A stretch of DNA of 64,000 bases from Sinomonas susongensis (GTDB taxonomy: Bacteria; Actinomycetota; Actinomycetes; Actinomycetales; Micrococcaceae), in contig NZ_SSNH01000005.1 in NCBI RefSeq assembly GCF_005877005.1, positions 1-64,000 of the forward strand, read 5' to 3'. This document shows, piece by piece, positions 28,331 to 51,971 of this stretch (position 1 is the stretch's first letter; each line of letters starts with the position of its first letter). The notes beneath the pieces were generated by a model that saw only the letters and a list, made by a program, of their open reading frames with translations, was not told the DNA's origin and did not search any database. A program made the translations under genes and the position numbers.

Positions 28331-28377
28331 CGGGTACCGACTACTGGTGACCTGCTGTGGCCGTAGGTCTGTACTGG
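28331..28377 (+). promoter_or_regulatory. Promoter of the exopolysaccharide operon with shared upstream element
   Basis: The block CGGGTACCGACTACTG (28331-28346) runs straight into a -35-like GTGACC (28347-28352). After a 17-bp spacer comes TGTACT (28370-28375) as -10. The 22 bases 28331-28352 and the 9 bases CTGTACTGG (28369-28377) are identical, at the same spacing, upstream of the sortase gene (51925-51971), while the 16 bases between differ. Transcription would begin near 28382, giving a leader of about 70 bases before the ATG at 28453. Confidence 0.65.
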
Positions 28378-28452
28378 TTGAGGGAGGAGCCGGTCAGCAG
28401 CATCGACGCCTTGGGGAAGCCAGAAGCAGGTCATCTCGGCCAGGAGCAGGTC

Positions 28453-29961
28453 ATGTCGGTAGGCGCAGAACAGAACATCGGGAGCTCCATCCCGTCGTGG
28501 CGCGGGACGAGGCTCATGTCGCTCCTCGGTCTCGGATCGTCGGCGACGCGGATCGCGCGTTCGGCGCGGGCCCAGGTCTGGCCCAGGCGATACGCGCTCT
28601 ACCTGCGCGTTGCCGATACCGTGATCGTGTTCGCGGCAGTGGCCATCGGACTCCTGTTCGGTGGCGCCGGCCCGCACACTGCGATCGCTCTCGTCCTGAT
28701 CGCCGTAGTCTGGCCGATTGCCCTGGGCGTCTACGGAAGCCGCGACGGGTCCGTCTTCGGCATCGGCGCGGAGGAGTACCGGCGCGTCGTCGCGGCGTCC
28801 GTCCAGCTCTTCGCCGTCATGGCCATCACGGCGCTCCTCGTCTCGGACTGGCTCCCGGCCCGCGTCTTCACCCTCGTGTTCGGGACCGGCCTCTTCGGCC
28901 TGCTCATGGCCCGCTGGTCGACCCGGCGCTGGCTCAACGCCCAGCGCCAGAACGGGCTCTACCTGACGCCCGCTGTCGTCGTCGGCGAACCCGAGGACGT
29001 GCGCTACGTGATCCGACGGATCTCGGCGAGCAGCGGCGCCCCCTACAACGTCCTCGGTGCCGTCCTTCCCGGCGGCCGGCGCGGCCAGTCCCTCGCCGTC
29101 GACGGGAACCGGCTTCCGGTGCTCAGCTCCATCGACGACGTCGTGCGGACGGTCGCGCTCAAGAAGGCCGGCGCCGTCATCATCGCCGGACCCGTTCCGG
29201 GAGGGAACCAGTACGTGCGGGAACTCGGCTGGAACCTCGAACAGTACGACGCCGAGCTCGTCCTCGCGTCGACGCTCACGAACGTCGCGGGGCCGCGGAT
29301 CCATTGGCGGCCCGTCCAGGGGCTGCCGCTCATGGAGGTCGACCTCCCGCACTACTCGGGCGCCAAGCATGTCGTGAAGCGGGGGATGGACATCCTGTTC
29401 GCTGCGGGGGCACTCGCGGTCCTCTCTCCGATCCTCGCGGTGCTGGCCTGCATCGTCCGCCTCGACTCGCCGGGCCCGGTCCTGTTCCGGCAGGAACGGA
29501 TCGGCAAGGACGGCAAGCCCTTCAAGATGCTCAAGTTCCGCTCGATGGTGCCGACCGCCGAAGAGCAGCTCGGGAAGCTCGCCCAGGCAAACGAGGGCGC
29601 GGGCGTGCTGTTCAAGGTCAAGAACGATCCGCGCGTCACCCGGTGCGGCCGCTGGATGCGTCGTTTCTCGCTCGACGAGCTCCCGCAGTTCGTCAACGTC
29701 CTCAGGGGCGAGATGAGCCTCGTCGGCCCGCGGCCGCCGCTCGCGCGGGAAGTCGGACAGTACGAGCGCTTCACCCACCGTCGCATGCTCATCAAGCCGG
29801 GCATCACCGGCCTCTGGCAGGTGAGCGGGCGGTCCGACCTCGACTGGGACGACGCAGTCCGGCTCGACCTCTACTACGTCGAGAACTGGTCGCTCCTGGG
29901 CGACCTCATGATCCTCTGGAGAACCTTCCGGGCCGTGGTGGCCCCAATCGGGGCCTACTGA
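28453..29961 (+). CDS. Undecaprenyl-phosphate sugar-1-phosphate transferase (WbaP/CpsE-like)
   Basis: A 502-residue polyprenyl sugar transferase that starts polysaccharide repeat units on undecaprenyl phosphate. Four hydrophobic segments lie in the first 160 residues, followed by a CoA-binding-like domain and a reentrant membrane helix (KRGMDILFAAGALAVLSPIL). The C-terminal catalytic domain (PF02397) contains FRQERIGKDGKPFKMLKFRSM, the RRFSLDELPQF stretch and KPGITGLWQVSGRSD. The ATG at 28453 follows AGGAG by 6 bases. An in-frame GTG at 28357 falls inside the predicted promoter and is rejected. First gene of the polysaccharide operon. Confidence 0.93.
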   Translation: MSVGAEQNIGSSIPSWRGTRLMSLLGLGSSATRIARSARAQVWPRRYALYLRVADTVIVFAAVAIGLLFGGAGPHTAIALVLIAVVWPIALGVYGSRDGSVFGIGAEEYRRVVAASVQLFAVMAITALLVSDWLPARVFTLVFGTGLFGLLMARWSTRRWLNAQRQNGLYLTPAVVVGEPEDVRYVIRRISASSGAPYNVLGAVLPGGRRGQSLAVDGNRLPVLSSIDDVVRTVALKKAGAVIIAGPVPGGNQYVRELGWNLEQYDAELVLASTLTNVAGPRIHWRPVQGLPLMEVDLPHYSGAKHVVKRGMDILFAAGALAVLSPILAVLACIVRLDSPGPVLFRQERIGKDGKPFKMLKFRSMVPTAEEQLGKLAQANEGAGVLFKVKNDPRVTRCGRWMRRFSLDELPQFVNVLRGEMSLVGPRPPLAREVGQYERFTHRRMLIKPGITGLWQVSGRSDLDWDDAVRLDLYYVENWSLLGDLMILWRTFRAVVAPIGAY

Positions 29962-30092
29962 CGGGGCCTGCTGACTCGGGGCCCCCTGATGCCGGCACTT
30001 GCCGGCCGGGTCACCGACACCGAACCGATCTTCACATCCTGCCGCATCCATCCAAACGCAACGACCCGCCGCACCCGTAAGGAGAGGCAATC

Positions 30093-31265
30093 ATGGCAGA
30101 CCTTCCCTACTCGCTCGTCCCACTGAGGACCGCGAGCCCAGCGAGCCAGCACTCGCGCCCGCTTGGCGTCGTCGTCGTCGGGGCCGGATACTGGGGGCCC
30201 AATCTGGCCCGCAACTTCCAGCGCTCTGAGGATTGGGAGCTCCGGGCCATCTGCGATCTGGACGTCGAACGCGCAGAGGGCCTCGCCCGGCAGTACGGCG
30301 TTGCCTCGTGCGGCTCGCTCGACGAGGCCCTCGACACCCTGGACTTCGACGCCGTCGCGATCGCGACCCCCGCGCGGACCCACCACGGGGTGGCGCTCAC
30401 GGCCCTCGGAGCCGGCAAGCACGTGCTCGTGGAGAAGCCGCTCGCGGATCACTGGGACAAGGGTTCGGAGATGGTCACCACCGCCGAGGACAACGGCCTC
30501 ATCCTCATGGCGGACCACACCTACTGCTACACGCCGGCGGTCCAGAAGATGCGCGAGCTGCTCCTCGAGGGCGAGCTCGGCGACATCCTCTACGTCGACT
30601 CCGTCCGGATCAACCTCGGACTCGTCCAGCCGGATGTCGACGTCTTCTGGGACCTCGCGCCCCACGACCTCTCGATCCTCGACTACATCCTCCCGGAGGG
30701 CCTGAGGCCCGACGCGGTGGCGGCGCACGGCGCGGACCCGCTCGGAACGGGACGCGATTGCGTCGGCCACCTCTCGTTCGACCTCCCGTTCGGCGCGATG
30801 GCGCACATCCACGTCAACTGGCTCAGCCCCACGAAGATCCGGCAGATGGTCATCGGCGGCACCCGCCGCACGCTCGTGTGGGACGACCTCAACCCGCAGC
30901 AGCGCCTGAGCATCTACGACCGCGGGGTGCAGCTTCCGCATCGCAGCCCCCGGGCGGGGGCCGAACGGCGTGAGGCAGCCATCTCGTACCGGCTCGGCGA
31001 CACGTGGTCGCCGGCGCTGCCGGAACGCGAGGCGCTCGGCCAGATGGTCGCCGAATTCGCGTCAGCGATCCGCGGGGAGCGGCCCCCGGCCACAAGCGGA
31101 GCATCAGCCCTCCGCGTGCTCGGAGTGCTCGAGGCGACGAGCCGCAGCCTCCAGGGAAGTGGCGCGCAGGCCACGGTGAATCCGGCCGAGGGACTCAGGC
31201 TCGAAGAACCGTACGGGGCTCCGCTCGTGGAAGAAGGCGCACTCAGGCAGGGGGCAGGAGCATGA
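30093..31265 (+). CDS. Gfo/Idh/MocA dehydrogenase of nucleotide-sugar type (WlbA/WbpB-like)
   Basis: A 390-residue NAD-dependent oxidoreductase. The Rossmann motif is VVVGAGYWGPNLARNF, the form typical of UDP-N-acetylglucosamine/glucuronate 3-dehydrogenases; HVLVEKPLADHW and ADHTYCYTPAV follow, and DVFWDLAPHDLSILDYIL gives the catalytic Asp/His. With a DegT aminotransferase and the acetyltransferase at 50827 it could make a 2,3-diacetamido sugar. RBS is AAGGAGAGG. The 131 bases before it hold no gene. It overlaps the next gene by 4 bases. Confidence 0.88.
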   Translation: MADLPYSLVPLRTASPASQHSRPLGVVVVGAGYWGPNLARNFQRSEDWELRAICDLDVERAEGLARQYGVASCGSLDEALDTLDFDAVAIATPARTHHGVALTALGAGKHVLVEKPLADHWDKGSEMVTTAEDNGLILMADHTYCYTPAVQKMRELLLEGELGDILYVDSVRINLGLVQPDVDVFWDLAPHDLSILDYILPEGLRPDAVAAHGADPLGTGRDCVGHLSFDLPFGAMAHIHVNWLSPTKIRQMVIGGTRRTLVWDDLNPQQRLSIYDRGVQLPHRSPRAGAERREAAISYRLGDTWSPALPEREALGQMVAEFASAIRGERPPATSGASALRVLGVLEATSRSLQGSGAQATVNPAEGLRLEEPYGAPLVEEGALRQGAGA

Positions 31266-32257
31266 CCGTCTTGGCCGGAGCCCGTGTGCTCGTGACCGGG
31301 GGAGCCGGGACCATCGGCTCGACCATCGTCGACCAGCTCCTGGACGCGGGCGTCGAGCACGTCGACGTCCTCGACAATCTCACGCGCGGTCGCCTCGCCA
31401 ACCTCGACCATGCCCTCGCGACCGGGAGAGTCCGGCTCATCGAAGGCGACCTCCGGGACCGTGACACCGTGCACGATGCGACCGTTGGGAAGGACCTCGT
31501 CTTCCATGAGGCGGCCATCCGCATCACGCAGTGCGCCGAGGAACCGCGGCTGGCCCTCGAGGTGCTCGTCGACGGGACCTTCACAGTCCTCGAAGCGGCA
31601 TCCCAGCACGGCGTCGACAAGGTGGTTCTTGCCTCGAGCGCATCGGTGTACGGCGAAGCGGACGAGTTCCCGACGCCCGAACGGCACCACCACCACAACA
31701 ACGACACCCTGTATGGGGCCGCGAAGAGCTTCAACGAGGGGCTCGCCCGGAGCTTCCGGGCAATGTACGGACTGGACTACGTGGCCCTCCGCTACTTCAA
31801 CGTCTACGGGCCGCGGATGGACGTCCACGGGCTCTACACCGAGGTCCTGGTCCGGTGGATGGAGCGCATCGCCGACGGGCGACCGCCCCTCGTGTACGGC
31901 AACGGCGAGCAGACCATGGACTTCGTCTACACGACGGACGTTGCCCGCGCGAACATCTACGCCGCCGAGGCGCTCGTGAGCGAGGGCGTCTACAACGTCG
32001 CGAGCGGGACTGAGACAAGCCTGCTCGCGCTCGCGGTCGCCCTCCTCGACGCGATGGACTCCGACCTCTCCGTGGAGTTCGGGCCGGAGCGCAAGGTCAA
32101 CGGGGTCGCCCGACGGCTGGCTGACACGACGGCGGCAGCCCGCGACCTTGGCTTCCGCGCCGAGATGCCGCTCGAGGAGGGCCTCCGCCGCCTCGTCGCG
32201 TGGTGGCGGCCGCTCCGCGAGGAGATCGCGGCGGCCCGAGTAGTGGCGGCGTCGTGA
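31262..32257 (+). CDS. NAD-dependent epimerase/dehydratase
   Basis: A 331-residue extended SDR acting on nucleotide sugars. The NAD site is VLVTGGAGTIGSTIV; the catalytic triad is visible as Ser in VLASSASVYGE and Tyr/Lys in LYGAAK; the substrate loop RYFNVYGPRMD is typical of UDP-glucose 4-epimerase/dehydratase relatives. A run of His (RHHHHNND) between the Ser and the Tyr is unusual. Start ATG 31262 overlaps the previous stop (ATGA) and its own stop overlaps the next GTG. It probably epimerises at C4 of a UDP-sugar; the substrate is unknown. Confidence 0.9.
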   Translation: MTVLAGARVLVTGGAGTIGSTIVDQLLDAGVEHVDVLDNLTRGRLANLDHALATGRVRLIEGDLRDRDTVHDATVGKDLVFHEAAIRITQCAEEPRLALEVLVDGTFTVLEAASQHGVDKVVLASSASVYGEADEFPTPERHHHHNNDTLYGAAKSFNEGLARSFRAMYGLDYVALRYFNVYGPRMDVHGLYTEVLVRWMERIADGRPPLVYGNGEQTMDFVYTTDVARANIYAAEALVSEGVYNVASGTETSLLALAVALLDAMDSDLSVEFGPERKVNGVARRLADTTAAARDLGFRAEMPLEEGLRRLVAWWRPLREEIAAARVVAAS

Positions 32258-33498
32258 GCACCGTCGACGAGGGCGTCGCCGCGCTCGAGCGCATCAACGT
32301 CATGAAGCCCTGGGTCGGCGCCGAGGAGGCCGACGCAGTCGCGGAGGTCATCGCGTCCGGTTGGCTGGCCCAAGGCCCGCGCGTCGCGGAGTTCGAGTCC
32401 GCGTTCGCTGCGGCACAGGGAGTGACGTGCGGGGTGGCGGTCTCGAGCTGCACGGCCGCGCTGCACCTCGCGCTGCTTGTCGCGGGCGTCAAGCCGGGGG
32501 ACGAGGTGGTGGTTCCGTCCTTCTCCTTCATCGCGACCGCGAATGCGCCGCGGTATGTGGGCGCCGTGCCCGTGTTCGCGGACGTCGATCCCATGACCGG
32601 CAACATGACCGCCGAGACCGTCGCCGAGGTCCTCGGGCCCCGGGTGAGTGCCGTGGTCGTCGTCGACCAGGGCGGGATGCCGGCCGACGTCGGCCCCCTC
32701 GCCGAGCTCTGCGGCGCCCGCAGCATCGCGCTCATCGAGGACGCGGCGTGTGCCGCAGGCTCACGGTACCGCGGGCGTCCCGTGGGAATCGGCGCGGACG
32801 TCGCGGCATGGTCCTTCCACCCGCGCAAGCTGCTTACGACCGGCGAGGGCGGCATGCTCACGACCGACCGCGAGGACTGGGCGGCGCGGGCAACCCGGCT
32901 GCGCCAGCACGCCGCGAGCGTCTCGGCCGCCGAGCGGCACGAGGCCGTGCGCGCCCCAGCGGAGCAGTACACCGAGCTCGGCTACAACTTCCGGATGACG
33001 GACGTCCAGGCGGCGATCGGGATCGTCCAGCTGAGGCGTCTCCCGGCGATGATCGAGCGGCGCCGCGCCCTTGCGGCGGCCTACCGGGAGGCGCTCGACG
33101 ACGTCCCCGGGCTCAGGTTCGTCGAGGACCCGCCCGAGGGCGAGTCGAACTTCCAGTCGTTATGGGCCGAGGTCGGCGACGATTTCCCGCTCACTCGGGA
33201 TGGGCTCCTCGACGCGCTCGCAGTCGAGGGCATCTCGGCCCGGACGGGAATCATGGCCTCCCACCTCGAACCGGCCTTCGCCGGCCAGCCGCCTCGGGTG
33301 CCGCTCCCGGTGACCGAGCGGCTCACGGCCCGCACCCTCATCCTGCCCCTCTACCACGAGCTCGGAGAGGAGGGCGTGGAGCGCGTGGCCGACGCCGTCC
33401 GCCGCGCCGCTCAGACGCAGAAGGTGCCTGATACGCAGAAGGTGCCTGATACGCAGAAGGTGCCGACCCACCAGAGGCGGGCGGGGGAACTGACGTGA
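32254..33498 (+). CDS. DegT/DnrJ/EryC1/StrS aminotransferase
   Basis: A 414-residue PLP-dependent sugar aminotransferase that converts a keto nucleotide sugar to an amino sugar. The PLP Lys is in WSFHPRKLLTTGEGG; SSCTAALHLAL binds the phosphate, and LIEDAACAAGS carries the pyridine-ring Asp. Start GTG 32254 overlaps the epimerase stop. The C terminus carries an odd tail of three TQKVPD repeats encoded by an 18-bp tandem repeat, just before the next gene; it lies beyond the catalytic fold. Confidence 0.9.
   Translation: MSTVDEGVAALERINVMKPWVGAEEADAVAEVIASGWLAQGPRVAEFESAFAAAQGVTCGVAVSSCTAALHLALLVAGVKPGDEVVVPSFSFIATANAPRYVGAVPVFADVDPMTGNMTAETVAEVLGPRVSAVVVVDQGGMPADVGPLAELCGARSIALIEDAACAAGSRYRGRPVGIGADVAAWSFHPRKLLTTGEGGMLTTDREDWAARATRLRQHAASVSAAERHEAVRAPAEQYTELGYNFRMTDVQAAIGIVQLRRLPAMIERRRALAAAYREALDDVPGLRFVEDPPEGESNFQSLWAEVGDDFPLTRDGLLDALAVEGISARTGIMASHLEPAFAGQPPRVPLPVTERLTARTLILPLYHELGEEGVERVADAVRRAAQTQKVPDTQKVPDTQKVPTHQRRAGELT
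33415..33465 (+). repeat. 18-bp coding tandem repeat, about three units
   Basis: The unit ACGCAGAAGGTGCCTGAT is repeated at 33415, 33433 and 33451 (third copy 15 bases). It encodes TQKVPD and keeps frame, so copy number can vary without breaking the aminotransferase. Confidence 0.9.
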
Positions 33499-34160
33499 CT
33501 GAGCTCCTCCTCGTCGCCGCGAGCGGCCTAGCCCGCGAGGTCATGTCCCTCGTGCGGGGCGGAGACGACTTCGACCTCCTCGGGATCCTCGACGACGATC
33601 CCATCCGCGCCGGCAGCCTCCTCGACGGCGCACACGTCCTGGGCCCGCTGGCCGAGGTGCGAAAGCATCCCGGTGCGCGGGTCGCGGTGTGCGTCGGGAG
33701 TGGGGCCATCCGCGCCGACATCGTCCGCCGCCTCGCTTCCCTCGGGCTTCCGCCCGGGCGGTTCGCCACGATCGTGCATCCGAGTGTCATGGTGCCCGAG
33801 GGCTGCACCGTGGGGGAAGGGAGCATCCTGCTCGCGAACGTCGTCATGACGGCCGCCGTCTCGCTGGGGCGGCACGTCGTCGTCATGCCAGGGGTCACGT
33901 TCACCCACGGTGACGTCGCTGACGACTACGCGACGTTCGGTGCCGGGGTCTCGCTCGGCGGATCCGTCGTCGTCGGGCGCGCGGCCTATCTGGGAATGAA
34001 CAGCAGCATCCGGCAGCGCACCCGGGTGGGTGCGCGCGCCGTCATCGGAATGGGGGCAGCCGTCGTCTCGGACGTGCCCGAAGGGCAGACGTGGGTTGGC
34101 GTCCCCGCCCGGCCCATGTCCCAGGACGCCCACGTCGCGGGATCCAGGGGAGAGTCATGA
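33495..34160 (+). CDS. NeuD/PglD-like sugar O- or N-acyltransferase
   Basis: A 221-residue acyltransferase. An N-terminal PglD-type sugar-binding Rossmann domain (LLLVAASGLAREVMSLV) is followed by a left-handed beta-helix of hexapeptide repeats (for example VGEGSILLANVVM, GRHVVVMPGVTFTHGDV, VGARAVIGMGAAVVSDV). The catalytic His lies in the FTHGDV region. Proteins of this type acetylate amino sugars in glycan synthesis. Start GTG 33495 and stop both overlap neighbouring aminotransferase genes, consistent with acetylating the new amine of their product. Confidence 0.9.
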   Translation: MTELLLVAASGLAREVMSLVRGGDDFDLLGILDDDPIRAGSLLDGAHVLGPLAEVRKHPGARVAVCVGSGAIRADIVRRLASLGLPPGRFATIVHPSVMVPEGCTVGEGSILLANVVMTAAVSLGRHVVVMPGVTFTHGDVADDYATFGAGVSLGGSVVVGRAAYLGMNSSIRQRTRVGARAVIGMGAAVVSDVPEGQTWVGVPARPMSQDAHVAGSRGES

Positions 34161-35284
34161 CAGCCGAGGCGCAGGCAGGCCGAGTCCAGAGGGTTCCCTT
34201 CGTGGACCTCGTCGCCCAACAGCAGGAAGTGAGCTCCGACGTCGTACCCGAGGTGGTGCGGGCGCTCGACACGGGCGCCTTCATCGGCGGACCGCAGGTC
34301 ACGGCGTTCGAGGAGGAATACGCGGACTTCATCGGGGTGGGCGCCTGCATCGGCGTCGCCAATGGCACCGACGCGCTCGAGCTCGCGCTCAGGGCAGTCG
34401 GCGTCGGGCCGGGCGGTGAGGTGATCCTGCCCGCGAACACCTTTGTGGCAACCGCCGAAGCCGTCGTTCGCGCCGGGGCGCGCCCGGTGCTCGTCGACGT
34501 CGAGCCCGAAACCCTGCTCATCGACACCGACGAGGTGGGCCGGGCGGTGGGGCCTAGGACGCAGGCCATCGTCCCGGTCCACCTTTTCGGACAGACCGCG
34601 CCGGTCGAGTCGCTCGTGCCGCTCGCAGCGCACCGCGGCCTCGCCGTCGTCGAGGACGCCGCGCAGGCTCACGGCGCGAGGCACTACGGCCGCTCCGCCG
34701 GCTCGCTCGGGCACATCGCAGCAACGAGCTTCTACCCCGGCAAGAATCTGGGTGCCGCGGGCGACGGCGGCGCGGTCACCACCAACGACCCCATCCTCGC
34801 CGACATGGTGCGCCTCCTTGCCGCGCACGGAAGCCGTGTGAAGTACGTGCACGAGATCGTGGGATTCAACTCGCGCCTCGATGCCATGCAGGCCATCGTC
34901 CTGAGGGCCAAGCTGCGCAGGCTCGCCGATTGGAACGCACGACGGCGCGCGGCCGCCCGGCTGTACGCGGAGCTGCTCGACGGGGTGCCGGGTGTACGCA
35001 CGCCCCGCAGCCGTCCCGGCAACGAGGACGTGTGGCACCTGTACGTGATCCGCGCCGAGGACCGCGAGCGCGTGCAGTCCGCGCTCGCCGGCGCCGGGAT
35101 CGGGACGGGGATCCACTACCCGACTCCCGTGCACCTCACCGAGGCGTTCTCCTACCTCGGCTACCACCCGGGCGACTTCCCCGTGGCCGAGGAGGCCTCC
35201 TCGCAGATCCTGTCGCTGCCGATGTTCCCGCACATCACGCCGGAGCAGCAGAGGCTCGTGGCCGAGGTGGTGCGGGGATGCTGA
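34157..35284 (+). CDS. DegT/DnrJ/EryC1/StrS aminotransferase (WbpE-like)
   Basis: A 375-residue PLP aminotransferase, second of its kind in the operon. The entry VPFVDLVAQQQEV and FIGGPQVTAFEEEYADFIG are family hallmarks; VANGTDALELAL binds phosphate, VVEDAAQAHGA holds the Asp, and SFYPGKNLGAAGDGG the PLP Lys. It resembles WbpE/WlbC, which aminate the 3-keto group made by the Gfo/Idh partner. The ATG at 34157 overlaps the acyltransferase stop (ATGA). Confidence 0.92.
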   Translation: MTAEAQAGRVQRVPFVDLVAQQQEVSSDVVPEVVRALDTGAFIGGPQVTAFEEEYADFIGVGACIGVANGTDALELALRAVGVGPGGEVILPANTFVATAEAVVRAGARPVLVDVEPETLLIDTDEVGRAVGPRTQAIVPVHLFGQTAPVESLVPLAAHRGLAVVEDAAQAHGARHYGRSAGSLGHIAATSFYPGKNLGAAGDGGAVTTNDPILADMVRLLAAHGSRVKYVHEIVGFNSRLDAMQAIVLRAKLRRLADWNARRRAAARLYAELLDGVPGVRTPRSRPGNEDVWHLYVIRAEDRERVQSALAGAGIGTGIHYPTPVHLTEAFSYLGYHPGDFPVAEEASSQILSLPMFPHITPEQQRLVAEVVRGC

Positions 35285-42646: not shown

Positions 42647-42661
42647 CCGCCCTGATTCGCA

Positions 42662-43277: not shown

Positions 43278-43288
43278 CTGGATTTGAG

Positions 43289-46200
43289 CTACGGAATCGT
43301 GAAGACGATATCTACCCAGTAGTTCGTAGCGTTGTAGCTGTTCGTCGGGAACCCGGATGCGCCGTAGCTGTAGAGTCCGTTCAGGTTGCTCCCAGCGCTC
43401 GCCAGACCGTGCAGCGGCGGTGAATCTGCCGAGGTCGAGAAGTACCCGCCGTTGGCGGAATAGAACCCGTTCGGTGCGTAGTACGAAACCACATACGTTG
43501 TGTTGGCCGAAATGGCGACCGGGGTCGACAGGGAAGCGGTCTGCCAGCCGCTGGCCGTTTCACCGCTGAACGTGACGGTGGCGAGCAGAGTTCCACTTGC
43601 CGTCCAGAGATGGCCGACGTGGGTCCCGGTGTTCTGGGCCCCCTTGTAGAACTTGATGGCACTCACCGATCCCGATACGTCGGCCGTGAACTGCATGCCA
43701 AGTTCGACGGCGTTCGCATCATTCACCGATGGCGTCGCTGGGGTCGCGGAGGATCCGAATACACTGCACGGGCACGTGTAGGAGGATCCCCCCGTCGAGA
43801 AGCTCCAGCTGTACGGGGATGTCATGGCCTGGCCCGTGGCGTTCTTCACTCCCGAGACTGTTGCCGTATAGGTCGTGTTGGCGGCAAGAGCCGAGCTCGG
43901 GGTGAAGGTGTAGGTGCCCGTGGCCGAGAGGTTGCCCACGCTCCCAGCGACGTTGGTTCCGCCAGAGCTGAGCGTGAACGTCGCCGCTGAGGTGTCGACC
44001 GACTGATCGAACGTTATGGACGCGGACGAGGTCACCGGGACACTCGTCGACCCTTGCGACGGCGAAACACTCATTACGGAAGGCGCAACGGTTGACCCTG
44101 CGTTGAAGACGGCGTCAACCCAATAGTTCGTCGCGTTGTAGGAGCTCGTCGGGAACGCTGAGGCTGATCCGTAGGCGTAGATGCCATTTCCTCCCGAGGA
44201 CGTATTGTCCAAGCCGGTGATGGGAGCGCTGCCCTGCGTGGCGGAGAACCCGTTCCCGGTGTAGGCGTAGCCCCCGTTCGGAGCGTAGTAGGAAACAACG
44301 TAGGTCGTATTCGCGGTCACGGATACGGGCGTCGAGAAGTAGGCCTGCTGCCAGCCCGAGGCGGACTCGTTGACGAACGTCACCGTGGCGAGCTTGGTCC
44401 CGCTGGACGTCCACAGGTTGCCTACGTGCGTACCGGAGTTGAGCGGCCCCTTGTAGAACCGCACGCCGGTGATCTGCCCCGCGGTCGACACCTGGAACTT
44501 CATCCCGAGTTCGACGCCGCCCGAGTCGTTGGCGCTGGCCGTAGCGGGCGTGGAACTGGAGGGGAAGACCGTGCAGGGGCAGCTGTACGGGGGAACGGTG
44601 GTGAAGCTCCAGCTGTACGGAGACATCGTCTGTCCCGTCGAGTTGGTTGCCCCGCTTACCGTGGCCGTGTACTGCGTGCTGTTGGCCAAGGAAGCCGAGG
44701 GTGTGAAGGTGGCCGTCGTCGTCGAACTCGAGTAGGCGACCGAACCTGCAACCGGGTTTCCAGCCGCGTCTTTCAGGACGAACTGGATCGACGAGGCTGA
44801 GACATCCTGGCTGAAGGTGGCGTTGACGGCAGAGGTGACAGGCACCCTCACCGCTCCGGGCGCGGGATTGCTCGAGCTGATGCTAGGCGCGGGAGGAGCC
44901 GCGGCTGTGGTGAAGCTCCACGTGTAGGGGGCGGTCATCGCCTGTCCGCTGGAGTTCGTTGCACCGCTCACGGTCGCCGTGTACTGCGTGCTGAATGCCA
45001 GGTTCGACGACGGCTTGAATGTCACCGTCGTGTTGGCGGCATTGAAGGTCGCACTGCCGGAGACGGCATTGCTGTTGGCGTCTTTCAGAGTGAACGTCAC
45101 CGAGGAGGCGGTCACTGCTTGATTGAATGTCGCACTGGGTGCGACTGTCGCGGTCACCCCGGTGGCCCCTGATGCCGGAGATGTCGAGGTGACCGCGGGA
45201 GCCGGCGGAGGTGCAGCTGTCGTGAAACTCCAGCTGTACTGGGACATTGCCTGGCCATTCGAGTTGGTCGCTCCGCTCAACGTGGCCGTGTAGGTTGTGC
45301 TGTTGGCGAGGGCCGCCGAGGGCGTGAAGGTTGCAACCGTGTTGTTGCTGCTGAGCGCAGTCGTTCCCGCGACTGGGCTGCCGCTGGCGTCCTTCAGGCT
45401 GAACGTCAGTGAAGAGGCGGTGATCGGTTGGTCGAACGTGGCGCTGGGCGTCGTGCTCACCGCAACACCAGTGGCGCCGGAGGTCGGAGATGTCGAGGAC
45501 ACGGCAGGGGGCGTCGGACCTGCAGGTGAGAAGACCGGGTCGACCCAATAGTTCTCAGCGTTGTAGATCTGGTTCGGGAAGACCGAGGTGCTGTTGTAGG
45601 CGTAGAAGCCGTTGGCTGCCCCGGGGACACTTCGGGTGAAGTGGAGCGGAGGAGAATCGACCGAATCGCTGCCCGCTGGCTGAGGCGACGGATTGTTGTA
45701 GAAGTATCCGGGATCCTCTGAATAATGACCGTTGGGCGCGAAGTACGAAACGATGTATCGCGTGCCAGATGTGATCGCGACCGGCTTGGAGAAGGTCAGA
45801 GTCTGCCAACCCGAAGCGGTTTCACCGGTGAAGGTGCCGCTCGCAAGAAGCGTGCCGGATGTCGTCCACAGGTTGCCGACGTGGGTGCCGGTGTTGGTGC
45901 TCGCCTTGTAGAAGCGGACGCCGGTGACGTTGCCGTTGACGTCCGAGTAGAACTGTGAACCCAACTCGACCGAGCTGGGATCGCCCGCGTCCACGTCGCC
46001 GGGCTTCGCGCCTTGCCCCAGAATCGAGCAGGGGCATGAGATGCCTACGGTTACGCCCGAGCCCGGCTTCTCGAGATTGCCGCTGTCGTCGACGGCACGT
46101 GACTCGATGGTCGTCGCGGGCACGTCGTGGGCTACCCAAGAGTAGGTCCAGTTCGTGGTGCCCGTGGCTGGGTGCCACGTCTTCCCGCCGTCCGTCGAGA

Positions 46201-47989
46201 CCTCGACACCCGCGACGACCCCGCCGCCTCCGTCGGTGGCTGTGCCGGAGACCGTCACGAGAGTTCCGTCGGCAATGCTCGCCTTGGCCGCGGGAGAAGT
46301 GATGACTGACGTCGGCGCCGTGGTGTCGCTCGACGCTGCCGTCTGGACGAGTCCGGAAATGAGAGTGACGGCTTGGGCGCCCATGTCGGCAAAGAGATTG
46401 ACCGTGGCCTGCTGCATGTTCGTGTCGGTGCTGCCTCCCGTATGGAAGTTGTCGAGACCCCAGGACCACTGGACAGTTCCGGCACCGAACACGAGGGCGC
46501 CGCTCGGGGCGCGGTACTCGGTCAGGTGATGGGTTGCGGTGTGTCCGGTCTGAGTCGTGCTCCCGTAGTCGGTGAACACTTCCGTGTTCGTGTCAGTCGT
46601 CGAAGACAGGTCGAAGAGCCCGGACGGACGGAAGCCGTTGTCGGCGTCGATGTCCCATTCATATCCGAGCGTGCCCAACCCTGAACCTAGGGTGATGGAC
46701 TGGGAGCCCGTGAGATTCGCGACGGCAGTGTTCCTCCACATCCGCAGCTTTGCGTATTGTGCCGGCACGCTGATATCGGTCGTACCGGAGTTGACGCTGA
46801 AGTATTGGCCGGTGAGCGAGTTCTGGGGATTTCCACCCCCGCCGGCGGTCCCGAAGCGGGGATCGTCGTAGGCTCCCGTCCACGTCACTGGGTCAGTGGG
46901 CTGGTTGAAGTGCGTGTCCTTATAGGCGACCAGGGTGCGATTCGACGTCGTGGGCCCGGCTTGGCTGGACTCCCAGCGCGTCCGCCAGAACATCTCATTT
47001 CCCGTGAACATTGCGATGTTCACGCCCTTGTCGCGCGCGGCCTCGATATTGGCCCGTTGGTCGTAGGAGACGTACTCGTCGTGCCCTGATGTGACGAGCG
47101 CCTTGTGGCTGAGGAGCGATGAGGCGTTGGTCGCCGTGTCGACCCCGGCCTGGTAGCTCACGTCATAGCCGTTTTCCTCCAGGAACCCGATCATGGGCAG
47201 TTCGGCGTAGGTCACCCAGCTGCGGCCCTGATCATCGAGTGCAGTATGGAAGGGCCTGTTGTAGGAGACCTTGAAGGCGGCCTTGTAGCCCAAAGGGTTC
47301 CCCGGCGGGCACGCGACGGTGCACTGGTAGAGGCTGTTGCCACCGTAGGTGTTGTACGCCTGCCAGGTCTCGTCGTTGGTCTGGTAGAGGATCGCGGAGT
47401 TCGATGCGTCGTTGCGGACCACGAAGGTGATCCAGCTGTCGCCGCCCGTGTCGTCGCGGACGAGGTGAGCGATGTAGACACCCGAAACTGCCGTCGCCGG
47501 AACGGCCCAGGACGCGGAGACGGCCCAGTTGCCGCAGTCGACGAGACCCGTGTCGGAGAACGTCTGGCAGGCAGGCTGAGTCTGGGGGAGGGTCGCGCTG
47601 GGCTTGAGGCCAGAGGCGATCTTCCGGGCCCCGTTGCCTTGGTAGTACCCGAGCCGCAGGATGTCGAAGTGGTATGACTTCGCCGGGGTGCTGATCTTGA
47701 ATTGCACCGTCTGGCCCACGTTGACGCTGATCTGGGTTGCGTAGCCCTGGATGGTCGAGTCCCCGTCTCCCGAGATCATCCAGTCCGTCTGCGGATCGCC
47801 GGGCTGGGTGTTCTCACAGGCCACGGCGCTCACAATGGGGGAGCAGGGGTCCGTTGCGGCCTTGGCGGACGGCGCGGAGGCCACGGGCACGGCGACGAAG
47901 ACCGCCATCACGAGCAGCGCCGAGGCCCAGCCAGCGATGATCCGGCGGAACGAGCGCCGAGGGGAGAAGGGTGCAGTTGACTGGCCCAT
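43289..47989 (-). CDS. Secreted multidomain protein: N,N-dimethylformamidase-like + DUF4082 x3 + Ig-like x4
   Basis: A 1566-residue exported protein. A signal peptide covers about residues 1-45 (twin-Arg-containing basic start, hydrophobic core, AKAA). Residues ~70-560 resemble the large subunit of N,N-dimethylformamidase (FDILRLGYYQGNGARKI, SYNRPF, GHDEYVS, FTGNEMFWRTRWE). An Ig-like segment follows, then a DUF4082 domain, three bacterial Ig-like (Big_5/SbsA) repeats, a second DUF4082, one Ig-like repeat and a third DUF4082 (~1406-1566). Each DUF4082 begins CPC(S/T). No sortase motif or membrane tail is visible. RBS is AAGGAGT. It follows the glycosyltransferase fusion by 12 bases. It may bind or trim surface glycan; the reaction is unknown. 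Confidence 0.85.
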   Translation of the reverse strand: MGQSTAPFSPRRSFRRIIAGWASALLVMAVFVAVPVASAPSAKAATDPCSPIVSAVACENTQPGDPQTDWMISGDGDSTIQGYATQISVNVGQTVQFKISTPAKSYHFDILRLGYYQGNGARKIASGLKPSATLPQTQPACQTFSDTGLVDCGNWAVSASWAVPATAVSGVYIAHLVRDDTGGDSWITFVVRNDASNSAILYQTNDETWQAYNTYGGNSLYQCTVACPPGNPLGYKAAFKVSYNRPFHTALDDQGRSWVTYAELPMIGFLEENGYDVSYQAGVDTATNASSLLSHKALVTSGHDEYVSYDQRANIEAARDKGVNIAMFTGNEMFWRTRWESSQAGPTTSNRTLVAYKDTHFNQPTDPVTWTGAYDDPRFGTAGGGGNPQNSLTGQYFSVNSGTTDISVPAQYAKLRMWRNTAVANLTGSQSITLGSGLGTLGYEWDIDADNGFRPSGLFDLSSTTDTNTEVFTDYGSTTQTGHTATHHLTEYRAPSGALVFGAGTVQWSWGLDNFHTGGSTDTNMQQATVNLFADMGAQAVTLISGLVQTAASSDTTAPTSVITSPAAKASIADGTLVTVSGTATDGGGGVVAGVEVSTDGGKTWHPATGTTNWTYSWVAHDVPATTIESRAVDDSGNLEKPGSGVTVGISCPCSILGQGAKPGDVDAGDPSSVELGSQFYSDVNGNVTGVRFYKASTNTGTHVGNLWTTSGTLLASGTFTGETASGWQTLTFSKPVAITSGTRYIVSYFAPNGHYSEDPGYFYNNPSPQPAGSDSVDSPPLHFTRSVPGAANGFYAYNSTSVFPNQIYNAENYWVDPVFSPAGPTPPAVSSTSPTSGATGVAVSTTPSATFDQPITASSLTFSLKDASGSPVAGTTALSSNNTVATFTPSAALANSTTYTATLSGATNSNGQAMSQYSWSFTTAAPPPAPAVTSTSPASGATGVTATVAPSATFNQAVTASSVTFTLKDANSNAVSGSATFNAANTTVTFKPSSNLAFSTQYTATVSGATNSSGQAMTAPYTWSFTTAAAPPAPSISSSNPAPGAVRVPVTSAVNATFSQDVSASSIQFVLKDAAGNPVAGSVAYSSSTTTATFTPSASLANSTQYTATVSGATNSTGQTMSPYSWSFTTVPPYSCPCTVFPSSSTPATASANDSGGVELGMKFQVSTAGQITGVRFYKGPLNSGTHVGNLWTSSGTKLATVTFVNESASGWQQAYFSTPVSVTANTTYVVSYYAPNGGYAYTGNGFSATQGSAPITGLDNTSSGGNGIYAYGSASAFPTSSYNATNYWVDAVFNAGSTVAPSVMSVSPSQGSTSVPVTSSASITFDQSVDTSAATFTLSSGGTNVAGSVGNLSATGTYTFTPSSALAANTTYTATVSGVKNATGQAMTSPYSWSFSTGGSSYTCPCSVFGSSATPATPSVNDANAVELGMQFTADVSGSVSAIKFYKGAQNTGTHVGHLWTASGTLLATVTFSGETASGWQTASLSTPVAISANTTYVVSYYAPNGFYSANGGYFSTSADSPPLHGLASAGSNLNGLYSYGASGFPTNSYNATNYWVDIVFTIP

Positions 47990-48001
47990 GATGACTCCTT
48001 G

Positions 48002-50830
48002 CTAGGCCCTGATGGTGCGCTGGGACGGGGAGGTGCCCGCTGCTGCGGACTGCCGGCTGCTCTCGTCGCGCTCCCAGTGCTGGGAGCCGGTGGAACCGAT
48101 GAAGCGGGAGCGGGGCTGTCGCCGCCCGACGAGGGCGAACGATGCATAGACCGCGGCATCCAGGGCAGAGAGCGGTCCTTGCACGGAGGCGATGAGGCCT
48201 TGCAGCGTCCGCGTCGACGCAGCGGATGGCCCGCTGGTGGCGGCCCGGTAGACGCGATGCAGGGTGGAGACGAGTGATGCGGTGGTTCGCGGCGGCCTCA
48301 CGACCACGGGATCGCCCTCGAGCAGCACTCTGTGCTCGGGTGCGAAGACGGTGTCCACGAAGAAGTCGTCGGCCGCGTCCTCGGGGAACGCCCCGAGGAT
48401 CCGGTGGCCCTCTTCCGTCATCGCGTAGCACCCCGCGCCCCAGAGGGCCGCGCGGTTGGACGGGATCCGCACGCGGGCCCGGTAGTAGGCGGCGACGAGG
48501 GGGTCGCAGCCCGAGGTGTCGTAGCGGAAGTCGGGCCGCCCGGCCAAGTGCCTGCCCTCAGCGAGCTCGGCGAGAGTGGCGGCAAGCGCCGATGGGGGGA
48601 TCTCGATGTCTGCGTCGAGGTAGACGCGCGGCCAACGGGTGGCGACGGCGTCGGCGGCGTTGAGCGCGCGGGCCTTGCCCGGTTCCGGGAGGTCGAGCAC
48701 CCGCACGCCCGGATAGCCCGCCGCGATCTCGGCGGTCCGGTCGGTGCAGGCGTTGCAGGCGACGATCACTTCGACGCGCCCGCTCGCGAGCGCGGGCCGG
48801 AGCCCCTCGAGGGTCCGGGCGATGACGGCCTCTTCGTTGTGGGCGGGGATGATGACGCTGCCTTCGGGATGGTCCTGCCCAGGCCCGTGGGCGTGCCACG
48901 TCGAGTGCGGCAGCTGAGCCCATTCGCGTGGCCGGAGGAGCGTAGTGAGCGTCCGGCGGTGGCTGGCGTCGGTGGCCCGAAGGGCTTCGCGGACGACGAC
49001 GGCGGCGGCGGCGAGCGCGGATAGCCCACCGGGGTGGTGCTTGCGCATGTAGCGGATGCGGTTGACCGCCATGAGCGCGGCGAGGCCGTCCGAGGCCCCG
49101 GATCCCGCTCCCGAGTGCATGACCCGGGCCGCGGGCTCGAACCACACGTCGAAGCCGCACCCGCGCAGGGCGCGGCAGTAGTCGGTCTCCTCCGAGTACA
49201 TGAAGAACCGCTCGTCCCAAGGGCCTGCGGCGGCCGCGGCCTCGGCCGAGATCAGGATCGCCGCGCCGGTGGCCCAGTCCACGGTGTGCGCGTGGGCATA
49301 GCTCTCGGCGTCGTAGTCGGTCTCGGCAATCCATTGCGGGCGCCGGGCGAAGTGGTCCCCGAACAGCGCGTCGCCCCACGCGCGCACCGCCGTAGGTTCC
49401 CGACGCAGCGAGGGGTACCGCGCGCCGTCGTCCGTGAGCATGAGCGGCACGACGGCGCCCGCGCCGCTCCGCCGGAGCCGCGCCAGCATCGCCCCGATGG
49501 ACGAGGGCAGGACTTCGGTGTCAGGGTTGAGCACGAGGTACGCCTCCGCTGGACCGGCCACCGCCATGGCCGCGTTGATCGCCCCCGCGTACCCCAGATT
49601 GCCGCCGGTGGCGAAGGCCACGACGTCCGGATGCCCTGCCGCGGCGTCGAGCGTCTCCGAGTCGGGAGAGTTGTCGGCGACGACAACCCGCAGGCGCAGC
49701 GCTTGGGCCTCCGGGCGCAGGGAATCGAGCAGCGGCCCGACGAGGGCTGCGCTGCGGTAGGTGGGGACGAGCACGGCGACGTCGGCCGGCTCGCCCCGGG
49801 GAACGAAGAGGGCGGGCTGGGACCCAGGCTCGTCGGCTCCGTCGCCAGCGCGGCCCCGCCCTGCGGGGTGGGCGGCACGGGCGGACGTCCTCGCTGCCGC
49901 AGCCCGTGCCGCGGCCGAGATGGCGACCGTTCCAGCGGCGCCCCAAGCTTCGCTGGAGCCGTTCCTCTCGGTACCGTTCCTCTCGGTACCGTTCCTCTCG
50001 GCACCGTTCCTCTCGGCACCGTTCCTCTCCGTGGCACTGTGGCGCCGGAGCCGCACGTAAGCCTCAGGCCCCTGGACCAGGTACCGTTCGGAGAGCCGTG
50101 CTGGCTCGAGGGCGAGCCGCCACGCCCATTCGAACCCGTGCTCGGCCACCCATACCGGAGCGCGCCGCACGCGCTCCGCGAGGAAGTCGACGACGGCGCC
50201 GAACGCGAGCAGGACGTGGGCGCCGGTCTCGGCGCCGTGCTCCGCGATCCACAGCTCCTGGCGCGGCTTGCCCAGCCCCACGACGAGCACGTCCGCCCTC
50301 GTTGCAGCGATCGAGCGGGCCACGATCTCGGACATGGAACGGTCCTCGAGCTCACCGCGGCTGGGCGCCCAGAAGCCGGCCACCCTGAGGGCCGGGCGCT
50401 GTTCGGCCAGGCGGCCGCGGAGGAGGACCTGCGCGTCCGGGCTCCCTCCGAGGAAGCCGACGCTCAGGCCCTCCGCCTCGCACCGGTCCAGGAGCGGCGC
50501 GATGAGGTCGCTGCCGGCGAGTCGCGGCCAGGGCCGTCCCGTGAGGCGTTCGGCGTGGGCGGCGAGGGGGGCGCCGTCGAGCAGCGTGAGCCACGCGACC
50601 CCGTCCGTGCCGTCCAGTACGTGCTGCCACCGGCCGCCCTGGCCGAAGTGGTACACGTGATCGAGGTTTGCCGAGACCACTCCGAGCGGACGGCTGCGTG
50701 TGCGGCATCCGCCGATGATCGCGTCGACGGCCTCGTCGCCGTCGAGCAGGGTGACGGCCGTGCCGCCGAGCATGACCGTGCCCCCGCGGGTCGTCGGGTG
50801 GGCCTGCTGGGGGAGGGCTTCCGCGCTCAT
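48002..50830 (-). CDS. Three-domain glycosyltransferase: WecG/TagA/CpsF + GT2 + GT2
   Basis: A 942-residue fusion. Residues ~20-260 are a WecG/TagA/CpsF (GT26) domain with GFLGGSP (126-132) and VVGLGKPRQELWI. A low-complexity linker (~267-345) contains five ERNG(A/T) repeats. Residues ~350-640 are a family 2 glycosyltransferase (VLVPTYRS, NPDTEV, FFMYSEETDYC). Residues ~655-930 are a second family 2 domain (VIIPAHNEE, LDADIE) with a hydrophobic C-terminal stretch. Start ATG 50830 overlaps the acetyltransferase stop (ATGA). These activities are normally separate proteins, so one chain may carry out three successive additions. Confidence 0.9.
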   Translation of the reverse strand: MSAEALPQQAHPTTRGGTVMLGGTAVTLLDGDEAVDAIIGGCRTRSRPLGVVSANLDHVYHFGQGGRWQHVLDGTDGVAWLTLLDGAPLAAHAERLTGRPWPRLAGSDLIAPLLDRCEAEGLSVGFLGGSPDAQVLLRGRLAEQRPALRVAGFWAPSRGELEDRSMSEIVARSIAATRADVLVVGLGKPRQELWIAEHGAETGAHVLLAFGAVVDFLAERVRRAPVWVAEHGFEWAWRLALEPARLSERYLVQGPEAYVRLRRHSATERNGAERNGAERNGTERNGTERNGSSEAWGAAGTVAISAAARAAAARTSARAAHPAGRGRAGDGADEPGSQPALFVPRGEPADVAVLVPTYRSAALVGPLLDSLRPEAQALRLRVVVADNSPDSETLDAAAGHPDVVAFATGGNLGYAGAINAAMAVAGPAEAYLVLNPDTEVLPSSIGAMLARLRRSGAGAVVPLMLTDDGARYPSLRREPTAVRAWGDALFGDHFARRPQWIAETDYDAESYAHAHTVDWATGAAILISAEAAAAAGPWDERFFMYSEETDYCRALRGCGFDVWFEPAARVMHSGAGSGASDGLAALMAVNRIRYMRKHHPGGLSALAAAAVVVREALRATDASHRRTLTTLLRPREWAQLPHSTWHAHGPGQDHPEGSVIIPAHNEEAVIARTLEGLRPALASGRVEVIVACNACTDRTAEIAAGYPGVRVLDLPEPGKARALNAADAVATRWPRVYLDADIEIPPSALAATLAELAEGRHLAGRPDFRYDTSGCDPLVAAYYRARVRIPSNRAALWGAGCYAMTEEGHRILGAFPEDAADDFFVDTVFAPEHRVLLEGDPVVVRPPRTTASLVSTLHRVYRAATSGPSAASTRTLQGLIASVQGPLSALDAAVYASFALVGRRQPRSRFIGSTGSQHWERDESSRQSAAAGTSPSQRTIRA
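49961..50035 (-). repeat. 15-bp coding tandem repeat, five units
   Basis: Five units of GTTCCTCTCGGTACC (plus-strand reading, minor variants) encode the ERNGT/ERNGA linker between the WecG-like and first GT2 domains. The 15-bp period preserves frame, so linker length can change by slippage. Confidence 0.92.
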
Positions 50831-51435
50831 GCCGGCTCCCTCCTGAGGCGCCCGTCCCGCTCGACATAGCGCAAGCCGGTCGCGGGGCACAGCCAGGCCT
50901 TCTCACTGGCACCGGCGTCACCGTCGGGCTTGAGCCGATACCCGGCCTCGCCGACCCAGCCGAGCTGACGGGCTGGGACGCCCGCCACGAGCGCGTAGTC
51001 CGGCACGTCCCTGACGACGACGGCGCCGGCGGCCACCGTCGCCCACTCGCCCAGGCGGACGGGGGCCACGCAGACGGCCCTCGCGCCGATCGAGGTGCCC
51101 CGTCCGACGCTGACCCCGACAGCATCCCAGTCGTCGGCGGTCTTCAGCGCTCCCTCGGGGGTGATGGCGCGCGGGTTGAGGTCGTTCGTGAACACCACGC
51201 CCGGGCCGATGAAGGCACCGTCCTCGACGATTGCGGGCTCGTACACGAGGGCGTAGTTCTGGATCTTGCAGCGGTTCCCTATCCTCGCTCCCGGGCCCAC
51301 ATAGACGCCCCGGCCGAGGACGCACTCGCGGCCCACGACCGCGCCCGATCGCACGTGGGCGTACTGCCACACCGTGGTGCCCTCTCCGACCTCTGCCCCG
51401 TCCTCGACCTCAGCAGTCGGATCAATCCGGACCAT
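50827..51435 (-). CDS. Hexapeptide-repeat acetyltransferase (WbpD/WlbB-like)
   Basis: A 202-residue left-handed beta-helix enzyme. The repeats VRIDPTAEVEDGAEVGEGTTVWQ, GRGVYVGPGARIGNRCKIQNYALV and PAIVEDGAFIGPGVVFTNDLNPRA are the hallmark of UDP-2-acetamido-3-amino-glucuronate/glucose N-acetyltransferases. The conserved Asn in FTNDL and Gln in QNY fit that subgroup. Together with the WlbA-like (30093) and WbpE-like (34157) proteins it would complete a 2,3-diacetamido sugar. First gene of the minus-strand operon; RBS GGAGGGG. The C-terminal part reads CPATGLRYVERDG. Confidence 0.9.
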   Translation of the reverse strand: MVRIDPTAEVEDGAEVGEGTTVWQYAHVRSGAVVGRECVLGRGVYVGPGARIGNRCKIQNYALVYEPAIVEDGAFIGPGVVFTNDLNPRAITPEGALKTADDWDAVGVSVGRGTSIGARAVCVAPVRLGEWATVAAGAVVVRDVPDYALVAGVPARQLGWVGEAGYRLKPDGDAGASEKAWLCPATGLRYVERDGRLRREPA

Positions 51436-51684
51436 GTCCCCTCCATCCCCTTTTTGCCTGAGCAGCGCATACCGCTCAGCGCGGGCTCAGCAGCGCGTGC
51501 GCGGCATTGCCTGGCTGCGCCTGCTCCCACGGTCGTGAGGGGCGCCGGGAGCGACAAGGTGATTGGGATGAAACGGGTCTTCCGGCGCGCGGATTCAGGT
51601 GACGGCCGCGGCACAGCCCTCGGTCCTTGAGTACGGGCCTCGGTGCGGGCAAGTAGTCCTCAGCTGCCTCGGGGCCCGGTCTGC

Positions 51685-51718
51685 GTACCCGCTACTGGCA
51701 TGAAATCCCGGGGTACAG
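51685..51718 (+). promoter_or_regulatory. Degenerate copy of the shared promoter element
   Basis: GCGTACCCGCTACTGG resembles the CGGGTACCGACTACTGG block at 28331 and 51925, and is followed 14 bases later by GGTACAGG. The spacing differs from the two well-conserved copies. It sits in the gene-free stretch 51436-52088, which contains at least six further GTAC-centred motifs (for example near 51638, 51848 and 51886). Confidence 0.35.
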
Positions 51719-51924
51719 GCCCGGTTTTCCGAGGGTTTCCTCCCGGCGCGCGCAAGCCGGCCCGGGTCTGGAACGGGCTCCATGCGAGGGTCGAGTCTCC
51801 CTTTTCTGACTCGATTCCAAGTATCCGGGCGTTCCCGGATGCGGTCTGCGTAGTCCAACCGGGTACTCGTGGGGAGCGTTCCGCGTACTCGCCAGAGGTG
51901 CTCCGACGACCCGCCCCCGGAAGC

Positions 51925-51971
51925 CGGGTACCGACTACTGGTGACCCGGCCGAATTCCCCGGCTGTACTGG
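51925..51971 (+). promoter_or_regulatory. Promoter of the sortase/surface-protein pair with shared upstream element
   Basis: CGGGTACCGACTACTG (51925-51940) joins GTGACC (-35, 51941-51946); TGTACT (-10, 51964-51969) follows after 17 bp. The 22-base left block and the 9-base CTGTACTGG are identical to those at 28331-28377, in the same orientation and spacing. Transcription should start near 51976, about 110 bases before the sortase ATG. Confidence 0.65.

Follow-up and report, generated by a model that had tools for sequence, protein, structure and literature searches.

An inverted-repeat operator shared by exopolysaccharide and sortase genes in Sinomonas susongensis, and its proposed reading by MalT-like LAL regulators

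The window analyzed here is a stretch of 64,000 nucleotides from Sinomonas susongensis, a member of the Micrococcaceae (contig NZ_SSNH01000005.1, positions 1 to 64,000). It carries four genes for regulators of the LAL (large ATP-binding LuxR) type in the order LAL1-LAL2-cysteine desulfurase-LAL3-LAL4, followed by a Wzx/Wzy exopolysaccharide (EPS) operon and, further downstream, by a gene pair encoding a sortase-like protein and a secreted surface protein (Table 1). The EPS operon and the sortase/surface pair are each preceded by a copy of the same promoter element, referred to as A and B, respectively. A preliminary description of the window had reported that these copies share 22 identical bases and an identical -10 block across a free 16-base spacer, and a pattern search proved this to be exact. 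The pattern CGGGTACCGACTACTGG-N{15,25}-CTGTACTGG has exactly two matches in the window, 28331-28377 and 51925-51971, both on the + strand, and none in 100 dinucleotide shuffles of the window; chance was rejected as the origin of the pair. The first 22 bases of the copies are identical, the 16-base spacer agrees at 2/16 positions, and the 9-base CTGTACTGG is again identical. The GTGACC and TGTACT hexamers at 17-bp spacing, which the preliminary description had read as -35-like and -10-like, were likewise borne out at both A and B.

The genome-wide scan for block, N16 and -10 block that had been suggested alongside these observations returned only A and B. It covered the organism's own genome (3.77 Mb, 36 contigs), allowing up to 3 mismatches around a free spacer of exactly 16 bases; at the same tolerance the reversed control was without a match in that genome, and the element had no match in viral contigs. 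R1, a sequence profile of 33 aligned sites trained partly on LAL-adjacent sites, recovers A at 1.8e-6 and B at 9.0e-6 in the own genome and beyond them just weak, doubtful sites. Two such candidates were not used: C12:304758 (E 0.003), which converges on a glutamine-synthetase-like frame with no convincing gene, and C34:253453 (E 0.005), which looks coding. The former (G000:C12:304758, - strand) is operator-like with GAGTAC upstream, and a small RNA or peptide target, or chance, is possible. Three features were absent from the preliminary description, namely additional GTAC/GTAG sites upstream of both A and B, a diverged third copy at 20324, and the inverted-repeat nature of the block.

Table 1. 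Regulators, operator and promoter elements, and the genes behind them in the window
Feature	Position	Strand	Remarks
LAL1, LuxR-type regulator	14716..17652	+	GerE helix-turn-helix (HTH); no intact Walker A
LAL2	17649..20300	+	Walker A and GerE HTH; paralogue of LAL4; longest open frame from 17349, likely start 17649
Auxiliary GAGTAC and AAGTAG sites of C	at about 20275 and 20296
Operator/promoter C (diverged)	20327..20371	+	arms TGGGTA 20327-20332 and CACTCA 20338-20343; -10-like GAGAGT 20366-20371
SufS-family cysteine desulfurase behind C	20668..22044	+	TIGR01979 above cut-off
LAL3	22627..25341	+	Walker A and GerE HTH; paralogue of LAL1
LAL4	25343..28051	+	adjoins operator A on the upstream side; proposed to read both A and B
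Further auxiliary site CGAGTACTCG upstream of A	28222-28231	+
Auxiliary site TGCGTACCCG upstream of A	28287..28296	+	followed by conserved CAAGGGTT
Operator A, 22-bp block CGGGTACCGACTACTGGTGACC	28331..28352	+	arms 28331-28336 and 28342-28347; overlaps -35-like GTGACC 28347-28352
-10 block of promoter A, CTGTACTGG	28369..28377	+	hexamer TGTACT 28370-28375, 17 bp past GTGACC
First gene behind A, exopolysaccharide biosynthesis polyprenyl glycosylphosphotransferase	28453..29961	+	TIGR03025, Bac_transf
Rest of A operon	to about 42646	+	Gfo/Idh, epimerase, DegT, hexapeptide, DegT, Wzx-like, glycosyltransferase, rhamnosyltransferase-like, Wzy_C
Auxiliary sites upstream of B	51847..51891	+	TGCGTAGTCC 51847-51856, CGGGTACTCG 51860-51869, CGCGTACTCG 51882-51891
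Operator B, block identical to A	51925..51946	+	arms 51925-51930 and 51936-51941; -35-like GTGACC 51941-51946
-10 block of promoter B, CTGTACTGG	51963..51971	+	hexamer TGTACT 51964-51969
First gene behind B, sortase-like protein	52089..52871	+	start codon uncertain; Foldseek best matches sortases
Second gene behind B, secreted Ser/Thr/Pro-rich repeat protein	52904..53905	+	signal peptide-like start; conserved hydrophobic, basic C-terminus

The element is conserved across the genus. Exact matches in a named genome collection fell in five stretches, all from Sinomonas (S. humi, S. gamaensis twice, Sinomonas sp. ASV322 and S. albida). When up to 3 mismatches were allowed in 296 genomes, 17 places in 11 genomes were found, of which 16 lay in 10 of the 15 Sinomonas genomes (the own genome included); among the 281 other genomes a single one, from another family, had one place, with 3 mismatches. 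The reversed control pattern gave five matches in the same 296 genomes and none in Sinomonas. The Sinomonas copies fall into class A, before the EPS operon, in 10 genomes, and class B, before the sortase/surface pair, in six. All six genomes with B also have A (G000, G001, G006, G007, G009, G010), and within these genomes the two copies agree at 130/132 positions of the block and 51/54 of the -10 block, whereas agreement is just 28/96 in the spacer and 168/600 downstream. Agreement of the blocks with divergence of the spacers in six genomes indicates a functional footprint rather than a recent duplication.

In all 10 genomes that match the pattern, A lies between LAL4 and the EPS genes. In G003 and G014 the free spacer of A is longer by one base (18 bp from GTGACC to the -10), G004 and G011 have diverged forms of A, and no A was found in G012. 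G002, whose B locus was covered over its whole length, has neither B nor the sortase/surface pair at that place, and a sortase homologue was not found in G002, G004, G005, G008 and G013 (5 of the 15 genomes). Additional operators were also seen in some species. In G009 (L035:2290, - strand) the glycosylphosphotransferase gene is shifted by about 4 kb from A and is preceded by a second operator copy with the -10 TTCACT, promoter A being retained before the epimerase gene. G006 has a third A-like operator (L144/L185, G006:C51:137592, - strand) with the same auxiliary site upstream, and the next gene encodes an epimerase 87% identical to that of the EPS operon. Others in or near EPS and surface-gene regions are L042:4137 (-), L094:7252 (-), L030:19904 and 12060 (-), and L034:18112 and 10248 (-); the extra operators belong to G005, G011, G006 and G009, and one precedes a secreted beta-propeller protein (L127).

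The operator block is an imperfect inverted repeat, CGNGTA-N5-TACTSG, that spans 17 bp and overlaps the -35. Its arms are complementary at 4 to 6 of 6 positions in 33/33 aligned sites (mean 4.7; none of the other 15 offsets tested exceeds 2.4), and at 4/6 positions in this window. MalT of Escherichia coli and Klebsiella is a LAL-class (STAND) activator that uses multiple hexamer sites upstream of sigma-70 promoters. The element resembles a MalT-type LAL operator in that a hexamer inverted repeat with a 5-nt gap lies over the -35 and a -10 hexamer follows at 17 bp, with G003 and G014 as the exceptions. The MalT hexamer GGATGA/TCATCC is not present, the arms here being CGNGTA/TACTSG, which suggests a separate LAL operator rather than a MalT box.

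The literature provides a close precedent. In Actinoplanes sp. SE50/110, the MalT motif TCATCC-5nt-GGATGA lies over the -35, 34.4 nt from mapped transcription starts, and activation by MalT is backed by malT deletion and overexpression data (PMC7567727). The likeness to the present element extends to the 6-5-6 inverted repeat overlapping the -35, the operator-to-start distance (about 35 nt here if transcription begins 7 nt past the -10), the MalT-like LuxR regulator in a region with two LuxR/MalT-like genes, the occurrence of sites at several promoters of one region, and conservation at the level of the family (PMC7567727). The two differ in their letters (TCATCC/GGATGA there, CGAGTA/TACTCG here) and in their targets, which there are amino-acid-type metabolism and maltose, and while the Actinoplanes regulator was established by deletion and overexpression (PMC7567727), the one here is proposed from sequence. 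The E. coli and Klebsiella MalT boxes, as quoted in the same source, are repeats of GGA(T/G)GA (PMC7567727), and neither this hexamer nor its arrangement is the same as here. PimR-type SARP-LAL regulators of Streptomyces are also LAL-containing and use repeated short boxes near the target promoter; these are heptameric direct repeats in 22-nt boxes that are bound by the SARP domain and serve a single target, pimM (PMC5930380), whereas a GerE HTH and inverted repeats are found here.

A gene of LAL architecture (N-terminal AAA/STAND ATPase, C-terminal GerE HTH) is present and linked to the operator: LAL4, directly upstream of A, has both Walker A and a GerE HTH, as do LAL2 and LAL3. LAL1 and LAL3 share 38% identity over 892 amino acids and LAL2 and LAL4 share 32% over 872, and it is this double paralogy that indicates that a LAL pair was duplicated. 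LAL regulators are common in actinobacteria, but the operator is known for few of them. Gene order across the cluster is conserved in the nine relatives mapped (in G005 the stretch ends inside LAL1), and LAL4 homologues (E<=1e-60) occur in 39/168 genomes of the family. The HTH recognition helices are very similar among the LALs, too much so for a given LAL to be assigned to an operator by sequence. Against the NCBIfam MalT model (NF003420), LAL1 to LAL4 score 23-32 bits, in the HTH region only, well under the cut-off of 537. LAL1 lacks the Walker A that its paralogue LAL3 has and is perhaps a non-ATPase partner.

The third site, C, emerged when 631 kb of Sinomonas DNA was scanned with a matrix; it is a diverged copy at 20324-20373, between LAL2 and the cysteine desulfurase gene. 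A C-type site after LAL2 and before this gene is found in 15/15 Sinomonas genomes, and in the 14 loci compared both auxiliary sites (GAGTAC and AAGTAG) are present together with a -10-like block whose offset does not change. As A follows LAL3/LAL4 and C follows LAL1/LAL2, each LAL pair has its own operator at its end. The order LAL-operator-cysteine desulfurase, with desulfurases 69-72% identical, recurs in other genera (L105, L106, L109, L196).

The assignment of A to a Wzx/Wzy polysaccharide operon and of B to a sortase/surface-protein pair in the preliminary description holds. The glycosylphosphotransferase behind A scores 411 bits against TIGR03025 (cut-off 296). The first protein behind B has no Pfam or NCBIfam match, but its predicted model, of modest quality (pLDDT 64.8), has sortases as its top PDB matches in Foldseek (E 7e-6), and H169, C239 and R254 (numbering of alignment A2) are invariant in 12 sequences, so that the product combines a predicted sortase fold with a His/Cys/Arg triad. 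The second protein behind B, also without a Pfam or NCBIfam match, is a candidate sortase substrate that lacks LPxTG and has a membrane-anchor-like C-terminus. In all seven of these proteins that were compared, AQT...AP..D.T.S precedes the hydrophobic stretch, perhaps a new sorting signal. By a strict pattern, no matching element was found at the second sortase-like gene of the own genome (C1:229925), nor at seven further sortase homologues that lie away from the B locus or as duplicates next to it (L079-L083, L085, L087). Two further genes lie between the A operon and B, both on the - strand: 43289-47989 encodes a 1566-amino-acid protein with a DMFA2_C domain, four Big_5 and three DUF4082 stretches, and 48002-50890, a single frame, encodes a fused glycosyltransferase that combines a WecG/TagA/CpsF domain with two GT2 stretches.

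Beyond Sinomonas, the upstream block is found behind related LAL genes. In other genera, 20 of 22 regions downstream of LAL4 homologues contain a CGAGTACNNNCTACTSGTG-like site before the next gene (L097 and L117 do not). A matrix built against circularity from seven Sinomonas variants only, with the 99th percentile of 4400 shuffles as cut-off, places 17/22 of these regions above the cut-off, compared with 0/22 equal-length coding segments and 1/22 reverse strands. Sixteen of the 17 also retain the last T of the -10, a position outside the matrix. The gene after the site is another LAL (L098-L104, L107, L108), a cysteine desulfurase (L105, L106, L109) or an EPS transferase (L110-L116, L118), and with downstream genes differing in this way the LAL is the constant neighbor. 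The -10 also varies (TTAACT, TAAGTT, TTGACT, TTGAAT, CAATAT) while the upstream block persists.

At E<=0.05, R1 matches 55/168 genomes of the family; in an order-wide sample of 198 genomes it matches 11, of which 10 belong to the same family and one does not. At E<=0.01 the family has 86 matches, 39 of them within 30 kb of a LAL4 homologue, a count that is partly circular. Sites more than 30 kb from a LAL4 homologue occur in 7/39 LAL4-positive versus 5/129 LAL4-negative genomes at E<=0.001 (p=0.007) and in 13/39 versus 16/129 at E<=0.01 (p=0.006). Among the five LAL4-negative genomes with a distant site at E<=0.001, G110 and G018 have LAL-like homology over 295-340 amino acids upstream of the site, G169 and G043 have a LuxR HTH there, and G083 has neither. 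Outside Sinomonas, 46 distinct sites were assembled, 20 picked for lying behind a LAL and 26 found regardless of LAL genes. Their downstream genes were compared with seven query proteins, and the 18 sites matching none were then typed by Pfam. Polysaccharide genes follow 18 of the 46 sites (14 EPS transferase, and four Pfam glycosyltransferase/UDP-sugar dehydrogenase at L121, L136, L145 and L179), LAL genes follow 10, cysteine desulfurase genes four, and other or unassigned genes 14. EPS-type genes lie downstream of 10 of the 26 LAL-independent sites, and nine of the 26 have LAL or LuxR-HTH homology on the same strand within about 1.5 kb upstream. In a search of 178 genomes the short pattern SRSTACYNNYTACTSGTGNY was matched 27 times; Sinomonas accounted for 17 of these, against one match there for the reversed control.

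A conserved hairpin, whose inner stem-loop shows TGAGACC, was observed in 13 other-genus operator loci (L105-L107, L110-L116, L118, L176, L204). It precedes an EPS transferase or cysteine desulfurase gene in most of them (e.g., L111:4583-4656, + strand), its consensus has 20 pairs, five of them changed on both sides, and GGTCTC, complementary to the TGAGACC loop, lies within 400 nt upstream in 12/13 loci. Rfam gave no match above the gathering score in seven other-genus loci, four of them hairpin loci. The hairpin is possibly a new leader RNA.

Taken together, these observations make it probable that a MalT-like LAL activator, most likely LAL4 and perhaps with LAL3 as partner, uses the repeated block as its operator on a sigma-70-type promoter. 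We infer the binding by a LAL, the identity of that LAL, and activation over repression from sequence features, and LAL4 is put forward as the reader because of its adjacency to A and the parallel arrangement at C. Once its ATPase/sensor part is switched on, the LAL would bind the inverted repeat as an oligomer. The downstream arm of the operator overlaps a poor -35, with a weak -10 following 17 bp on across the free spacer, and the upstream GTAC/GTAG half-sites would add cooperative binding. The bound LAL would then contact or recruit the housekeeping RNA polymerase, and the EPS operon behind A and the sortase/surface pair behind B would be switched on together. The paralogous pair LAL1/LAL2 has its own diverged copy, C, before the cysteine desulfurase gene.

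The preliminary description had left open a common activator or a common sigma factor, and the activator is well supported by the free spacers in six genomes, the position after LAL genes in other genera and the operator-like symmetry. A sigma factor typically leaves a pair of conserved blocks that keep a fixed distance across a free spacer, and among the Sinomonas sites conservation of the -10 block almost equals that of the upstream block, so that the blocks could be read as the -35 and -10 of promoters for a dedicated alternative (ECF-type) sigma factor. This is very improbable: -10 and -35 are not conserved together at one spacing, as the -10 diverges between genera while the upstream block is kept, which argues against a dedicated sigma factor; a 17-bp inverted repeat is too long for a -35; additional half-sites lie upstream; and no sigma gene was seen among the neighboring genes scanned. 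A recent duplication, gene conversion or mobile repeat without regulatory meaning would account for the 22-bp identity at two places in one genome, but it retains almost no probability when A and B occupy orthologous places in six species with differing spacers, the spacers in the own genome agree so little, and that genome holds no further copies at up to 3 mismatches. Recent duplication is refuted by these cross-species data.

It is also conceivable that some activator or repressor with its gene elsewhere binds the block and that the LAL genes are near it merely as part of a conserved neighborhood. The distance of B from the LAL genes fits this idea, as does the lack of LAL homology in about 1.5 kb upstream of 17 of the 26 LAL-independent sites in other genera. 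We consider it unlikely, given that the genes behind the other-genus sites differ (LAL, cysteine desulfurase, EPS transferase), that the geometry equals that of a known LAL operator, that of Actinoplanes MalT, and that each LAL pair has its own copy, A or C. Another possibility is that a LAL at these sites represses, or that one LAL pair acts as activator and the other as anti-activator in competition for A, B and C. Two paralogous pairs side by side with very similar recognition helices, and a LAL1 without Walker A, are compatible with this; an operator placed over the -35 is what one would expect of activation at a promoter whose -10 is weak, and the best-matched precedent, Actinoplanes MalT, is an activator (PMC7567727). 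Repression or competition thus appears distinctly unlikely.

Several findings weigh against activation by LAL4 or narrow what can be claimed for it. B is 24 kb from the LAL genes, and two of the 24 regions read for it (L097, L117) are without a site. With the Sinomonas-only matrix, 5/22 regions fall below the cut-off and only 4/22 beat the largest of the 4400 shuffles, and in L116, one of the 17 above the cut-off, the best match is not the site read earlier. In 19/20 site-bearing loci of other genera, the best match in the window to the upstream regulator is LAL2, not LAL4, which suggests that the element belongs to the whole LAL2/LAL4 lineage and means that the naming of LAL4 rests on position. 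The near-LAL counts from R1 are circular owing to its training, and the excess of distant sites is lost at 1e-4 (3/39 versus 3/129, p=0.14), so that distant sites are tied to LAL4 only weakly. Outside Sinomonas, the short pattern had 10 matches in the 178 genomes against 26 for its reversed control, and since the control was commoner it was dropped as evidence there in favor of the positional and profile tests. Finally, the 14 of 46 other-genus sites with other or no assigned genes behind them include an ANTAR-domain protein (L120), a copper-ATPase region (L159/L191) and loci with no plausible target (L157/L186, L200/L189). The proposal that the shared element serves surface building accordingly stands only in part: polysaccharide genes are the largest class, while the LAL, cysteine desulfurase and unassigned classes, together with site C in the window, extend beyond it.

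No report of this operator was found in the open literature on LAL/LuxR regulators, exopolysaccharide, MalT and related actinobacteria. As far as this search reached, the LAL operator and regulon described here are unreported, and the kind of system is already known. A broader reading, which we offer tentatively as somewhat less likely than not, is that paired LALs across the Micrococcaceae, amplified as whole pairs with their own operator, may form a STAND-ATPase cell-surface switch in which one signal would turn on both exopolysaccharide synthesis and the sortase/surface pair from a CGAGTA-N5-TACTCG operator, with cysteine desulfurase and further LALs as recurrent co-targets and a structured leader RNA in several genera. 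Should the proposed reading of the element as a LAL operator be right, LALs found across the family would gain both an operator and a first regulon, polysaccharide and sortase output would be linked in soil Micrococcaceae, and the targets of these regulators could be predicted from sequence.

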